Shown here piece after piece: positions 14,388 through 46,484 of a stretch of 64,000 bases of DNA. The notes below the pieces were generated by a model that was not told where the DNA came from, searched no databases, and saw only the letters and a program-made list of their open reading frames with translations. Position numbers and translations under genes: made by a program. The DNA comes from Anaerobranca gottschalkii DSM 13577. GTDB lineage: Bacteria > Bacillota > Proteinivoracia > Proteinivoracales > Proteinivoracaceae. The stretch is from assembly GCF_900111575.1 (NCBI RefSeq), contig NZ_FOIF01000001.1, positions 61,417-125,416 on the forward strand. Reading direction: 5' to 3'. Every line of letters starts with the position of its first letter. Position 1 is the stretch's first letter.

Positions 14388-14407
14388 TACACCTCAAAAT
14401 TATATGT

Positions 14408-15016
14408 AACTAACGGTGGTAATATAGAAGGTAAATGTTGCGGCTTAGGTCTAGCAGGTTTTCCCAGAAAATTACCTGGTGTCGCCATCCAGGCGGTTTC
14501 CCTTTAAAATTTTCTCTGTTTTAAACAGGGCTAGATTGCCACTTAGTCCGCACTTTAATCCCTTCTATATTTCCTTACGGAACAGTCTAGGAGCTTTCCT
14601 CGACAAAGGTTGCTATATCCTAGCCTCTTTTGCACTAATGGTTTCAACCCCTGGTTTTCAAATTAGGCCCCTTTGAAAATCCAGTTTTTAAATAGTATCC
14701 ACCATTACCACTCAAGGCAGGCTACACTGTACACAGCCCTTGTTTTCGGGCAGAACCGCATACAGGTTTCTATCCTAAGCCATAATTTAGCACCCCATCT
14801 ACGTGATAAACTACAAACTTAGGTCTCCGCGGAGGCGGGGTCAACGCCCACATGCCATTGTGGATCGCCCCATCCCCCTTAACTCCCAGCACCAGCCCAC
14901 GACTGGGCGTCGTAAGCCAGCACCAGGAACTTCATCGATGTGCCCTTAACGGATTTTTAGGCCCGTCTTCAAATATAGCACCTTTGACTAGAATACTGCA
15001 CCACCGTTATTTGATA
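14408..15016 (-). ncRNA. ole: OLE RNA (ornate, large, extremophilic RNA)
   Basis: About 610 bases without a plausible gene, GC-richer than its surroundings and full of helices. The ends pair through AACGGTGGT (15008-15000) and ACCACCGTT (14420-14412). Length, the closing helix, and the exact gene order ispA, PAP2-like, RNA, oapA, dxs, tlyA match the OLE RNA locus. OLE RNA forms a membrane-associated ribonucleoprotein with OapA and affects stress and magnesium tolerance. The 5' end is set from the sigma-A promoter at 15023-15051; the 3' end is approximate because the transcript may read through into oapA. Confidence 0.92.
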
Positions 15017-15022
15017 AAATCT

Positions 15023-39823: not shown

Positions 39824-39985
39824 TTACCTGAGAGATTTAGTTCCCCTTTGGTGCACCGATGGTGCTCTCCAGAGTTGTGTCCCTTTTAGGTACTTTTGCC
39901 TGAAAGTTTCGTTGCTTATAGCAAATTATTCTAAGCAACTTGCTTCTTCGGCGCCTTTACAGGTCTCTCCCTAAAAGTTCATTCA
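39812..39985 (-). ncRNA. Tandem glycine riboswitch
   Basis: On the minus strand aptamer 1 opens with GGGAGAGACCTG, continues GGCGCCGAAG and closes with TTTCAGGCAAAAG; aptamer 2 opens with ACTCTGGAGAGCACC, carries CACCAAAGGGG and closes with CTCTCAGGTAAAAAGGACAGAG. These are the conserved blocks of two glycine aptamers joined by a short linker. It lies 100 bases before gcvT and controls the glycine-cleavage genes. The layout with a competing hairpin suggests that glycine turns expression on. The remaining space of the 39714-40098 gap is AT-rich with no clear promoter. Confidence 0.95.
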
Positions 39986-42417: not shown

Positions 42418-42466
42418 TACAAAAAACCTCCTTTTCCTTTTACAACCATTATATTATTACCGGTCA

Positions 42467-42576
42467 TAAAAAGCACCTTTTTTTACTGTTTTTATTAAAT
42501 CACCATTTATTTCATTGTACAAAATTGCGGAAAAAATTACAATACAACCGGCTAATTGCTGATAAGTTAAAGTTTC
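42467..42576 (-). pseudogene. 3' remnant of EamA-family transporter gene, cut off by the TnpB element
   Basis: Reading on the minus strand from 42576 gives ETLTYQQLAGC then IVIFSAILYNE and a stop at 42467-42469. This is the expected C-terminal helix of an EamA/DMT permease and continues, in frame, the LLLG that ends the 5' part at 44038. Joined, the site reads TTA TTA GGG GAA ACT. It shows exactly where the mobile element went in. About 50 bases separate its stop from the ddl start, and a TATAAT at the junction may drive ddl. Confidence 0.82.
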
Positions 42577-42760
42577 CGTTACAGAAAACTTATAAAACTT
42601 TACAAAGTTTTTATCAAACCTTATAAAAGTTTATGTTTCCTTCCTTGTTCATCGTGTCCAGTTTCGAAAAATTCTACTCCTGTTTGGTTTAACACTCCGA
42701 AGGCTTAAATTCCCGACTAACGTATCGGTACATATCAATAGTTGCTTTAAGTGCTATGCT
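42577..42760 (-). ncRNA. Candidate omega (reRNA) scaffold and right end of the TnpB element
   Basis: Downstream of the tnpB stop the minus strand carries CCGA/TCGG around TACGTTAG, the GTCGGGAATTTAAGCC stretch common to right ends of IS605/IS1341-type elements, and near the end the perfect palindrome AAAACTTTGTAAAGTTTT-like hairpin at 42593-42611. In characterised elements this region is the scaffold of the TnpB guide RNA, with the guide read from sequence just outside the element (here 42576 downward). Boundaries are approximate and expression is not shown. Confidence 0.5.
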
Positions 42761-43938
42761 ATTGATTTACCGTAATTTTTTAAATTTATACTTGCATTTA
42801 AATCCCTATCTATTTTATAACCACAAACGTTACAGATAAAAGTTCTTTCTGATAGAGAAAGTTTGTCTTTTATACTTCCACAGCTGCTACAAATTTTAGA
42901 TGAAGGATAGAATTTTTCTGCAAGGATAAATTTAATACCGTTACATTGGCATTTATATTCCATCTGTCTTCTAAATTCACGGAATGTTTGTTCTTGGATT
43001 GCTTTAGATAGCTTTTTGTTTTTTAACATTCCCTTTGTATTTAGGTTTTCCATAACTACATATTCTGGTTTGGTTTTCACCAATGATGTAGTTATTTGAT
43101 GGAGATAGTCTTTCCTTATATTTTTTAGCCTTCTTCGTGTTTTTAGAACAAGGTGTTCTAACTTTTTAATGTTGTTAGTTTTTCTGTAACGGTATTCACC
43201 TCCTTCTGTTTGTATTTTGTTTAATTCATATTTTTTAGATAATTTTCGTTGTAATCGTTTAAGTCTTTTCTCTAACTTCTTAACTTTCTTTGATTTATTT
43301 ATGTTTTTGTACTTTTGTCCTGTACTTATTGTAGCTAATTCTTTTACTCCTAAATCTATTCCTATACCCTCTGTATATTCTTTATTCTTATATTCTACTT
43401 CTTCTACTCCTATTGTTAAGTACCAGTTAAGTCCATCAAATGTTACCCTTGGGTTGTAGTATTTAATATTATCACCTACAGGTATTCTTCCTTTTTCAGC
43501 AAGTTTAACCCAATTTAGTTTTTGCTTATTGGGCTTTTTACTGTTAGTTAATTTTTCTAATTTTACATGGGTTGGGGTTATTTTAATTTTTTCTGTATCT
43601 ACATAAAAACTAGGTTTACTTTTCTTTTTTGACTTAAACTTAGGAAAGTCTGCTCTGCCTTCAAAGAAGTTTTTGTATGCAATACATACATCTTTTATTG
43701 CTTGTTTGGTTATATTGTTTGAATAGTCATTAAGCCATGAGTATTCTTTTGTCTTTTTTAGCTCAGTTAATATTTTTCTAAGTTCTCTGTCATTTAAAAA
43801 TTTGCCACCGTTATTATAATTCTCTTGTTCTGTAGCTAAAGCCCAATTATATGCCCATCTTGCAACCCCTGCACATTCTTTTAATTTAGTTTTTTGTTTT
43901 TTGTTAGGTAGAAGCATTACTTTATAGGTTTTAATCAT
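42754..43938 (-). CDS. tnpB: TnpB RNA-guided endonuclease of IS200/IS605-type element
   Basis: A 394-residue OrfB/TnpB protein, ancestor type of Cas12. All parts appear intact: N-terminal helix-turn-helix and WED-like region (MIKTYKVMLLPN, WAYNWAL), RuvC Asp195 in GIDLGVKEL, Glu297 in VVMENLN, zinc finger C350/C353 and C369/C372, and Asp379 in DRDLNAS. The ATG at 43938 fits the family start; an upstream GTG would be too close to the GGGGG site. It would cut DNA matching its right-end guide RNA next to a target-adjacent motif and so favour retention of the element. Confidence 0.95.
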   Translation of the reverse strand: MIKTYKVMLLPNKKQKTKLKECAGVARWAYNWALATEQENYNNGGKFLNDRELRKILTELKKTKEYSWLNDYSNNITKQAIKDVCIAYKNFFEGRADFPKFKSKKKSKPSFYVDTEKIKITPTHVKLEKLTNSKKPNKQKLNWVKLAEKGRIPVGDNIKYYNPRVTFDGLNWYLTIGVEEVEYKNKEYTEGIGIDLGVKELATISTGQKYKNINKSKKVKKLEKRLKRLQRKLSKKYELNKIQTEGGEYRYRKTNNIKKLEHLVLKTRRRLKNIRKDYLHQITTSLVKTKPEYVVMENLNTKGMLKNKKLSKAIQEQTFREFRRQMEYKCQCNGIKFILAEKFYPSSKICSSCGSIKDKLSLSERTFICNVCGYKIDRDLNASINLKNYGKSIA

Positions 43939-44037
43939 TAGATTTATCACCCCCTGACAATTTCCTCATTTATAAAATTATTATAGATATTTAGATTGTT
44001 TTATAAATATAGTTTAACTGTTAAAAGCCCCTAATAA

Positions 44038-44536
44038 CAGGTATGCAAATACTACTCCAAAAACCGGCTCTAAAGTAAAAATAATTGCTGCCCTCTGTCC
44101 GCTGACCTTTTTCTGACCTATGGTTTGTAATACCAAAACACAAAGCACAAAATAGAACTAATATATCACCATAGTTTATTCCGTAGGGTAAATCTTTTTC
44201 AAAACTCAATAAAGCTGTACCTATTATAGCGAAAACCACTGCTAACCCTGTTAAAAATGCGCCCTTTGCTGCAGTAGTATAAGTTAACCCAGTGATTTGG
44301 AAAATCAACCCCCCTGCCAACAGTAGTCCTAAAATTATGCCACCTTTAATTTCCCCTTTGTTAATCTCTTTTATTTCTCTCCAAAAAATTAAAAGACCTA
44401 AAATTGTAGCAAAGGTAAATCTAACTGCAATGAGGGAAAAGGGTGGCAAACTTTCTAAAGCAGCTTTAAGAACAGCAAAGGTAGTTCCCCAAATTATTGT
44501 AATAAAGACTAATAAAAGTTCTCCTCTAATTTTCAA
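44038..44536 (-). pseudogene. 5' part of decayed EamA/DMT-family transporter gene
   Basis: The N-terminal half reads as a DMT-family permease (IIWGTTFAVLKAALESLPPFSLIAVRF-type pattern, then TTAAKGAFLTGLAVVF). Two internal losses follow: AVVF jumps straight to AIIGTALLSFE, lacking a helix usually in between, and after LCFGI the frame shifts. The correct C-terminal part LQTIGQKKVSGQ then EPVFGVVFAYLLLG is found in another frame with roughly 90 residues missing before it. Insertion of the TnpB element at 44038 removed the last helix. The gene is dead; probable start is a TTG at 44536 with GAGGTG upstream. Confidence 0.8.
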
Positions 44537-44661
44537 AAGTATCACCTCAAGTAGACCACTAAAATAAATTTAATAAAGTTTATTCAACATCTAATGTGAA
44601 AATCCTTTTATCTTTCTATTATTTTTTTGTCACTTTTTACAGTTTATTTACACCCTGTTGA

Positions 44662-44689
44662 TTATCATCTTAAATTTTGGAGATATAAT
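44662..44689 (+). promoter_or_regulatory. Probable sigma-A promoter of the small secreted-protein gene
   Basis: TTATCA (44662-44667), 16-base spacer, perfect TATAAT (44684-44689), then AAGGAGG at 44702-44708. The -35 is weak. Confidence 0.55.
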
Positions 44690-44716
44690 AAAATTAAATC
44701 CAAGGAGGTGGTTAAA

Positions 44717-45052
44717 ATAAATAAAAAGATTTTTGCTGTTGTTTTAGTTTTAAGTATTTTTGTGGTAGGTTTAGGTTTTGTCTCTGCCCAAGAAACAGAG
44801 GAAGGTAATCGGTTCTTTAACAGAAGAAATTGGAACTTTAGATTCGGCATGGCCAGAGGACAGTGCATTAACCCTTTAGAGGATGAAGAAAGGCTAGAAA
44901 GAATAGCAGAACGAAAAGGGGTTACCGTTGAAGAATTAAAGGAATTCATCCTTGAAAAAAGGGAACAAATGGAAAATCTTGAAAACTGCAGACCCCGTAT
45001 GGGTAGAAGATTTAAGGGAAAAATAGGCAATGGTCAAATGATCAACAATTAA
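44717..45052 (+). CDS. Small secreted protein with probable AUA start codon
   Basis: The only convincing plus-strand gene. From 44717 it encodes 111 residues: NKKIFAVVLVLSIFVVGLGFVSA is a standard signal peptide, cut after VSA, followed by an Arg/Asn-rich stretch and a helix (EDEERLERIAERKGVTVEELKEF-type) with two cysteines. The SD AAGGAGG (44702-44708) is eight bases before ATA at 44717-44719. No ATG, GTG or TTG lies at usable distance: the GTG at 44708 overlaps the SD. AUA initiation is thus the simplest reading; a mutated ATG and a dying gene is the alternative. Function unknown. Confidence 0.65.
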   Translation: MNKKIFAVVLVLSIFVVGLGFVSAQETEEGNRFFNRRNWNFRFGMARGQCINPLEDEERLERIAERKGVTVEELKEFILEKREQMENLENCRPRMGRRFKGKIGNGQMINN

Positions 45053-45075
45053 AAGGAGCCAATCAGGCTCCTTTT
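45051..45075. terminator. Terminator hairpin, left copy
   Basis: AAAAGGAGCC/GGCTCCTTTT stem with an AATCA loop immediately after the small secreted-protein gene. It is palindromic, so it can work on both strands; read on the minus strand it directly follows repeat copy C. A 23-base identical copy lies at 45345-45367. Confidence 0.82.
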
Positions 45076-45076
45076 A

Positions 45077-45344
45077 GACTGAAGACAAACTATAGACAAA
45101 GTCACCATTAGCTGTGGTAATTAAACAAAGATACGATTAAGTCGAGGAGATAGATTTAAGAGCTGATTAGATAAAAGGAAGAAGGGGTGAGGAACAGGAC
45201 GTTCCGAAAGCTCTATTGAGCCATGGACGGCGAATTAGAGCGGTACCCTTCTTCCTTTTAGATAGAAGCCTTAAATCTCGACGGAGACTTTGTTAGAATG
45301 TTTAATTACCACAGACTTTTAAAAATGACTTTGTCTACAAACTG
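45077..45344 (-). repeat. Structured palindromic repeat, copy C (long form, complete outer arms)
   Basis: Core 45111-45314 (204 bp) is nearly identical to copy B: the same 17-base ends, paired blocks and apical module (45188-45245), here with a fully paired GCTCTA/TAGAGC stem. Outside the core it has an additional inverted pair TAGACAAAGTCA (45093-45104) / TGACTTTGTCTA (45326-45337). The left linker matches that of copy A. Flanked by identical 23-base palindromic terminators. No coding potential. It fills the gap between the convergent small secreted-protein and aminopeptidase genes. Confidence 0.88.
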
Positions 45345-45367
45345 AAAGGAGCCAATCAGGCTCCTTT
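45345..45367. terminator. Terminator hairpin, right copy
   Basis: AAAGGAGCC/GGCTCCTTT stem overlapping the aminopeptidase stop codon; identical over 23 bases to 45052-45074. It may end the aminopeptidase transcript, though on the minus strand only TTTC follows. Confidence 0.7.
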
Positions 45368-46484
45368 ACTTTTTTAATACCTCATCAATAAACTTTCCAT
45401 TTTCATAAAACAGCTCGCCATCGGCATAGATCTTGCCACCATTTCTCATATCACATAACATATCCCAATGGATAGCGGAGCGGTTCTTTCCTCCCGCTTC
45501 TGGCATGGAATCTCCGATAGCCATATGGATAGTTCCACCTATTTTTTCATCAAATAGCATATTCTTAGTAAATTTCTGAATTCCGTAATTAGTACCTATA
45601 GCTACTTCTCCGAAAAATCTCGCCCCTTGATCAGTATCCAGTAAGGCATGGAGGAGATCTTCCCCTTTAGAAGCTGTAGCCTTAACTACTTTCCCCTTTT
45701 CTACCTCTAAATAAATATTTTCAATTTCTTTTCCAGCATAAATTCCTGGGAATGAAAAGGTTATATATCCATCAATACCATCTTCCACCGGTGATGTAAA
45801 GATCTCTCCATCAGGGAAATTTACTCTTCCATCACAGTTGATCCATTTCCTTCCCTCGATCTTTACTTTAATATCAGTACCTTCAGCTATTATATGGAGT
45901 TCTTTTTTGGTATTTAAATAATCCACCCATCTTTGCTGCTGGGCACTGATTTTTTTCCATTCAGCTATGGGATCTTCTTTATCTAAAAGGCCAGCACCGT
46001 AAACAAAATCTTCATATTCCCTCAATGACATATTGGCCTCTTGGGCATCGGCATGGGTAGGAAACTGGGTACCACACCAACGAATTTCTCCACTACCCAT
46101 TTTTTCTGAAAAACGCTTCCTTGTTTCACTGTTGCCCCTTACCCTTGTTTGAATCTTTTTAGGGTCTATATTAGAATTTACCCTGGTATTTTCCGTTCCC
46201 CAGGCGGTTATATAAACATCGGCGTTATCCACTACTAATTTAAAGGTTTCACTAGGTTTTAAAAGCTGTTCCTCGCTACCTTCCTTTAGCAATGTTTCAC
46301 CAATTTCTGGAATATTAACGGTATACTCCACAAAAGCACCTTTTTTAATAGCAGCTTTAGCCACTTCTGTTATAAAGGGAATTGTTATTGCTTCCCCAGA
46401 AATATAGACCTTTTCCCCCTTTTTTACTCCTGTGGAATATTCCACTAGTAAATGGGCTAACCTCTGTAATCTAATATCAGCCAT
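45366..46484 (-). CDS. M29-family aminopeptidase
   Basis: A 372-residue metallopeptidase of the thermophilic aminopeptidase family (AmpS/AmpT). N-terminal RLAHLLVEYSTGVKKGEKVYISG, middle FPDGEIFTSPVEDGIDGYITFSFPG with a metal-binding Glu, and C-terminal IHWDMLCDMRNGGKIYADGELFYENGKF with His and Asp ligands (HWDM). It hydrolyses N-terminal residues from peptides in the cytoplasm. ATG start. Monocistronic as far as can be seen, converging on the small secreted-protein gene. Confidence 0.93.
   Translation of the reverse strand: MADIRLQRLAHLLVEYSTGVKKGEKVYISGEAITIPFITEVAKAAIKKGAFVEYTVNIPEIGETLLKEGSEEQLLKPSETFKLVVDNADVYITAWGTENTRVNSNIDPKKIQTRVRGNSETRKRFSEKMGSGEIRWCGTQFPTHADAQEANMSLREYEDFVYGAGLLDKEDPIAEWKKISAQQQRWVDYLNTKKELHIIAEGTDIKVKIEGRKWINCDGRVNFPDGEIFTSPVEDGIDGYITFSFPGIYAGKEIENIYLEVEKGKVVKATASKGEDLLHALLDTDQGARFFGEVAIGTNYGIQKFTKNMLFDEKIGGTIHMAIGDSMPEAGGKNRSAIHWDMLCDMRNGGKIYADGELFYENGKFIDEVLKK

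Follow-up and report, generated by a model that had tools for sequence, protein, structure and literature searches.

The window, a 64,000-nt stretch of the Anaerobranca gottschalkii DSM 13577 genome, carries an intact tnpB inside a gene of the EamA family, as the original prediction had recognised. The locus raises the question of what kind of element this is, where its borders lie and what its insertion site says about how such elements choose their targets.

Borders and family of the element

Other copies in the same genome, with unrelated flanks, were used to set the borders: three left ends (L002, L005 and L006) and three right ends (L003, L004 and L009). The whole element occupies 42576..44027 on the minus strand and is 1452 bp long, one copy of the crossover GG being counted, at the right end. 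It begins with CTTTTAACAG at 44027, preceded by the target GG (44028..44029, minus strand), and finishes with CTGTAACGG at 42576; a second GG lies at 42576-42577. Because the target GG is found on both sides, the exact border base is ambiguous within it. The right border at 42576 was thus as originally predicted, while the left border had been placed at 44038, about 10 bp from the correct position (44028|44027). A join of 44038 to 42576 would not give LLLG-ETLT.

A GG is present at both junctions and a single GG is left in the empty site, so that insertion took place without target duplication. This pattern is characteristic of crossover by serine recombinases of the IS607 type (PMC6188088). 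The element therefore belongs to the IS607 family and not to IS200/IS605. Similarity to ISDra2-like IS200/IS605 elements extends to TnpB homology, the RuvC residues, a guide beyond the right end and a target-adjacent motif (TAM) on the left. These elements differ in having a Y1 transposase, no GG crossover, a variable right-flanking nucleotide, a different TAM and a guide-RNA scaffold that overlaps the end of the tnpB coding region. Membership of IS200/IS605 was ruled out by the GG crossover together with the IS607 TnpA of relatives.

The tnpB gene (42757..43950, minus strand; stop at 42754-42756) encodes 398 aa when read from the GTG at 43950, an alternative to the ATG at 43938 that opens the conserved start MIKTYKV. 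Pfam domains HTH_OrfB_IS605, OrfB_IS605 and Cas12f1-like_TNB were found in the protein. Among solved structures its best match is 8iaz_A (E 3e-72, residues 6-392), named in its source paper as ISFba1 TnpB (PMC11061315); the ISDra2-type, IS200/IS605 structure 8bf8_A matched with E 1.7e-39. The RuvC residues D199, E301 and D381 align with those of ISFba1, and the zinc-ribbon cysteines (CxxC pairs) are also present. Downstream of tnpB and ahead of the right end is a RAGATH-18 RNA, the reRNA scaffold (42641..42703, minus strand; RF03064, 71.7 bits against a gathering threshold of 44.9). It is followed by the 3' flanking scaffold or right end (RE; 42576..42640, minus strand, ending in TTATAAGTTTTCTGTAACGG), which is conserved in 60 other right ends. 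With its catalytic residues, RAGATH-18 scaffold and ISFba1 homology, TnpB is a plausible RNA-guided nuclease, in agreement with what had been predicted for it.

No tnpA is present in the window copy, where about 90 bp separate tnpB from the left end (LE; 43994..44027, minus strand, starting CTTTTAACAGTTAAACTATATTTATAAAA). The LE is conserved across copies and probably forms part of putative TnpA-binding end repeats. The draft genome (2.3 Mb, 110 contigs) holds eight more partial matches to the element, most of them cut by contig ends. Two of these copies (L007 and L008) have tnpB preceded by an internally deleted TnpA, and IS607 TnpA occurs in the draft genome as fragments only. By contrast, a related element of Alkalithermobacter with similar ends (L037), located between genes for two succinyl-CoA-ligase-type subunits (the upstream one named by reading its sequence), has a full IS607-type TnpA of 215 aa. 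The window element is thus, from its sequence, an IS607-family transposon that has lost tnpA and kept a predicted RAGATH-18-guided TnpB nuclease. Neither the IS607 type, the RAGATH-18 scaffold, the loss of tnpA nor the otherwise broken state of the host gene had been noticed in the original prediction.

The element belongs to the published RAGATH-18/IS607 TnpB family, which includes ISFba1 (Ren et al. 2024, PMC11061315). Like the window element, this family has a TnpB of about 390 aa, a RAGATH-18 guide-RNA scaffold that is separate from tnpB and lies 3' of it, IS607 type and an AG-rich flank beside the left end; its members are mostly from Firmicutes and have often lost tnpA. The window copy departs from it in lying at TAGGG, not at AGGAG or GAGGG. 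The IS607/ISXfa1 TnpB (PMC10711439) is alike in its GG crossover, fixed right-flanking nucleotide and guide beyond the right end, but its TAM is GGG, and the term RAGATH is absent from that paper. IStrons of the CdISt1 type resemble the element in being IS607/IS605-related mobile elements that the host must tolerate, and differ in carrying a self-splicing group I intron. A search for introns over the window and over 42500-45450 gave no matching family, and membership of the IStrons was ruled out.

The empty site in the EamA gene

The element separates the 5' part of the EamA-family gene (44028..44545, minus strand; PF00892, E 5e-17, aligned to the intact 298-aa orthologue L128) from its 3' end (42457..42575, minus strand; ETLTYQQLAGCIVIFSAILYNEINGDLIKTVKKGAFYDR, then the stop). 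In a sister species (G001) the EamA gene is intact, with 298 uninterrupted codons. Joined together, the two flanks of the element match it at 83% over 302 nt and the alignment is ungapped through the junction, indicating that the reconstructed empty site is right. Removal of the element does restore LLLG-ETLTYQQ, as had been proposed, and the sister species' empty site agrees; the repair is however only local. Relative to the sister species, the window's gene has lost 194 nt at 44134|44133, which shifts the frame, and, upstream of that point, apparently another 66 nt or so in frame. As judged by this alignment, the host gene would be a pseudogene even without the element, and only its last part is mended when the element is taken out.

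Related elements mostly lie between ribosome-binding sites and start codons

We collected related elements by a TnpB scan of genome contigs, which gave 59 loci, mostly from Caloramator, Alkalithermobacter, Anoxybacillus, Thermotalea and Selenomonas. Searching further genomes for RAGATH-18 brought additional loci, and a pattern search over 399 genomes of the phylum gained few extra sites. A start codon was counted only if it opened an ORF of at least 60 codons, with distance measured after the terminal ...AACGG. On this definition 49 of 61 distinct right ends (80%, own genome included) had a start codon 4-11 nt downstream, and the distances peaked sharply at 7 nt (22/61). Controls from the same flanking DNA were far lower: a start codon followed 10.1% of any GG (Fisher 1.7e-37 against the elements), 13.2% of RRRGG (Fisher 2.8e-31) and 32.1% of AGGAGG (Fisher 4.6e-10). 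For AGGAGG lying outside any ORF of 100 codons or more the figure rose to 45% (p 4.6e-5), and non-coding RRRGG was followed by a start codon in 20% of cases (p 5e-22). Since the copies share ancestry, and several were taken from a single Alkalithermobacter genome, these P values overstate their independence.

On the left side, each of the 37 assigned copies had only purines in the five bases before the element, and the consensus was A-G-G-A-G-G; the left ends were assigned by eye among candidates required to follow GG. These flanks are Shine-Dalgarno sequences, that is, AGGAGG and its variants. The clade thus usually inserts exactly between the ribosome-binding site and the start codon. The window copy is an exception, being an in-gene insertion at TTAGGGG and not at a Shine-Dalgarno site. 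Its left flank, TTATTAGGGG (44028..44037, minus strand), has TAGGG at the TAM positions where the family consensus is AGGAG; AGGAG is found beside the own-genome copies L002 and L005 and in many relatives.

This pattern bears directly on the motif first put forward for the element, TTATTAGGG, under which it would be a simple TnpB element with the TAM seen at the EamA gene. That sequence does adjoin the window copy. Alignment of the left flanks of other copies, however, revealed AGGAGG-type or related purine flanks at the three other left ends of its own genome and at 33 elsewhere, and TTATTAGGG was not shared. These copies contradict the proposed motif, though not the borders of the element as such; the family consensus is AGGAGG, and the simple reading based on TTATTAGGG has become barely tenable.

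Individual reconstructed sites illustrate the placement. For glmM (L068) the site reads AAGGAGG, CACAGGT and ATG; for dnaB (L041), TTAGGAGG, TGAGGAA and ATG; and for nusB (L073), TTAGGAGG, GATACAA and ATG. All three are, by sequence, textbook ribosome-binding sites. The sister species supplied a direct empty ribosome-binding site, reading GCTCTAGGAGGTGATTATATG where the window's genome has GCTCAAGGAGG, the element and then CGATTATATG. In the sister species the left flank of L002 and the right flank of L003 are adjacent (GCTCTAGGAGG-TGATTATATG), ahead of a DNA polymerase IV gene. The sites of L009, L005 and L006 are also unbroken there, each with AGGAGG or a weaker purine run ahead of the start codon. 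The gene at the L009 site encodes an L,D-transpeptidase with LysM; judged from sequence, L005 marks a transporter permease and L006 a murC-like start. For L005 and L006 the left flank alone is seen in the window's genome and the gene start was read in the sister species. An uninterrupted version of the L004 site (EVE domain) was found in another genome (G002). With the EamA copy excepted, the five other resolvable insertions of the window's genome thus lie between a ribosome-binding site and a start codon. L006 lies directly beside a murC-like leader, yet a TIGR01082 search of the draft genome gave nothing for murC over the family cut-off; the missing match is probably due to an assembly gap at the repeat.

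Shortened and divergent copies were also observed. In the sister species, L157 (about 1190-1311) consists of a solo RAGATH-18 with a right end and no tnpB, a guide-RNA remnant. Alkalithermobacter thermoalcaliphilus has at least 10 copies (L065-L075 and L081) with shortened tnpB/tnpA remnants in common, whose RAGATH-18 and right ends are intact and lie at ribosome-binding sites. Their structure suggests mobilisation or guide function in trans. In a second subgroup (L107, L108, L110, L117, L118, L122 and L126) the right end finishes in TTTAGTAGCAG and no GG crossover is visible. Right ends of this subgroup, which read AGTAGCAG at the terminus, lie, by eye, 5-11 nt ahead of start codons, including those of mutS-like (L108), rimO-like (L107) and pcrA-like (L117) genes, named by reading the sequence and not by search. 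Location at ribosome-binding sites may therefore hold beyond the GG group.

We found no published statement on placement at ribosome-binding sites or start codons within open-licence papers, and the main text of PMC11061315 has zero occurrences of 'ribosom' or 'start codon'. AG-rich motifs beside left ends had been noted there. The site analysis gives the published AGGAG motif a meaning, namely the Shine-Dalgarno core.

A proposed TnpB-based account of the insertion bias

The TAM of RAGATH-18 TnpB proteins has been determined as AGGAG in 18 of 22 strains and GAGGG in 4 of 22, and any single change of AGGAG abolished cleavage by ISFba1 (PMC11061315). When AGGAG is aligned to our left-flank logo it occupies positions -6 to -2, and the last G of the logo is the crossover base. 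The guide therefore begins with that G. In this register, which was obtained by fitting the published TAM to the logo, the predicted native guide of the window copy is GAAACTTTAACTTATCAGCA (42557..42576, minus strand), its first G being the crossover base. The start proposed earlier for the guide, GAAACTTTAACTTATC, is correct if the crossover G is indeed the first guide base. The native guide is unique in the genome, with zero other matches within 2 mismatches, and the sister allele mismatches it at several positions, three of them within the first six. With TAGGG at the TAM positions, the EamA site is predicted to be a weak or off-type target and is probably poorly suited to its own TnpB. The proposed TAM and native guide make a poor test pair, because the TTAGGGG motif of the window copy is atypical. 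Tool builders should also be aware that, in this clade, a natural guide usually spans a start codon.

We propose an account that joins the borders, family, insertion pattern and empty sites observed here to the TAM and nuclease activity published for relatives, 23 of which cleave DNA (PMC11061315). Elements of the IS607 family recombine at a GG dinucleotide and duplicate no target sequence. The clade's TnpB would recognise AGGAG next to a target matching the roughly 20 nt beyond the right end, and would cut element-free alleles that carry AGGAG, with repair putting the element back. Insertions bearing AGGAG may thereby be retained, a step from TAM to retention that we infer from the general TnpB model cited in PMC11061315. 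Because AGGAGG is the Shine-Dalgarno core, elements would accumulate downstream of the ribosome-binding site, ahead of the start codon. In the sense orientation there, host transcription could also yield tnpB and guide RNA, and such transcription would presumably benefit the element. We give a probability of about 85% to this account as a whole: an IS607 element that has lost tnpA, TnpB-driven retention at AGGAGG, and a window copy that is a minority case. With a Shine-Dalgarno sequence as its motif, the element would have thousands of similar, conserved, transcribed and non-coding landing sites per Firmicutes genome.

TnpB, rather than TnpA, is the presumed cause of the Shine-Dalgarno bias. 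Insertion sites are selected by TnpA, which related elements such as L037 have intact; the clade's TnpA could itself prefer a target beyond GG and so make the bias, with TnpB merely protecting the element later. IS607 TnpA alone, however, requires only (G)GG at its target, with no further target pattern (PMC6188088), and it is the measured TnpB TAM that fits positions -6 to -2 of the logo. We therefore consider a TnpA-made bias unlikely. Purifying selection alone would have elements inserting at any purine-rich GG, with in-gene copies lost and those in 5' leaders staying. In-gene copies are indeed rare, and non-coding AGGAGG already has a start codon downstream in 45% of cases. Against this, non-coding RRRGG reaches only 20% where the elements reach 80%, and random intergenic sites would include antisense and 3'-UTR positions too, which makes selection as the only cause improbable. 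Either a TnpA preference for AGGAGG or purifying selection could still be the source of part of the pattern alongside TnpB-driven retention.

Tolerance of the insertions by host genes

The interrupted genes glmM, dnaB, murI, coaBC, nusB, SMC and mnmA are all full length. In the 1.86-Mb record of Alkalithermobacter, PF02878 matched one gene besides glmM, a phosphomutase-type gene of 579 codons, and no second glmM copy was found among these matches. This raises the question of how glmM, dnaB, murI and coaBC are translated with 1.1-1.5 kb between ribosome-binding site and start codon. Predicted pairing of the leader with the 16S tail falls from a mean of -10.0 to -4.4 kcal/mol after insertion, and a TG, part of GG(UGA), is retained in 14 of 48 right ends. 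Residual GG(UGA) pairing would thus make at most a partial contribution.

Host expression might instead survive through removal of the element at the RNA level, or through pairing of its ends that places the Shine-Dalgarno sequence near the start codon. The interrupted yet intact genes are essential in most bacteria, and LE and RE are partly complementary. On the other hand, an intron was not detected in the element, and cognate LE:RE pairs bound no better (-15.2 kcal/mol) than ends from different copies (-14.9 kcal/mol). An mRNA bridge was rejected on these values and RNA-level rescue in general appears very improbable. The equal binding of cognate and mixed ends points to shared, putative protein-binding repeats.

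The right end has a -10-like TATAAG box conserved in 36 of 48 related sequences. Matches to a -35 averaged 3.8 of 6, against 2.6 in shuffles, and a -35 is not consistently present. A short-leader promoter in the right end is a possible candidate. Taken further, the whole TnpB clade may use the Shine-Dalgarno sequence as its TAM and live between ribosome-binding sites and start codons, including those of essential genes, with translation kept by an undescribed route such as initiation via the right end. We offer this extension tentatively and hold the odds to be somewhat against it.

Other RNAs in the window

Three further structured RNAs were recorded in the window. At 45142-45289 (plus strand) a TwoAYGGAY-like RNA scored just under the Rfam threshold (42.0 versus 43 bits, E 1.1e-4); it is enclosed by two terminator-like hairpins (45047-45074 and 45340-45367) that are 93% identical. 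A full-length OLE RNA (518 bits) lies at 14400-15020 (minus strand), and a glycine riboswitch aptamer (66.5 bits) at 39878-39982 (minus strand).
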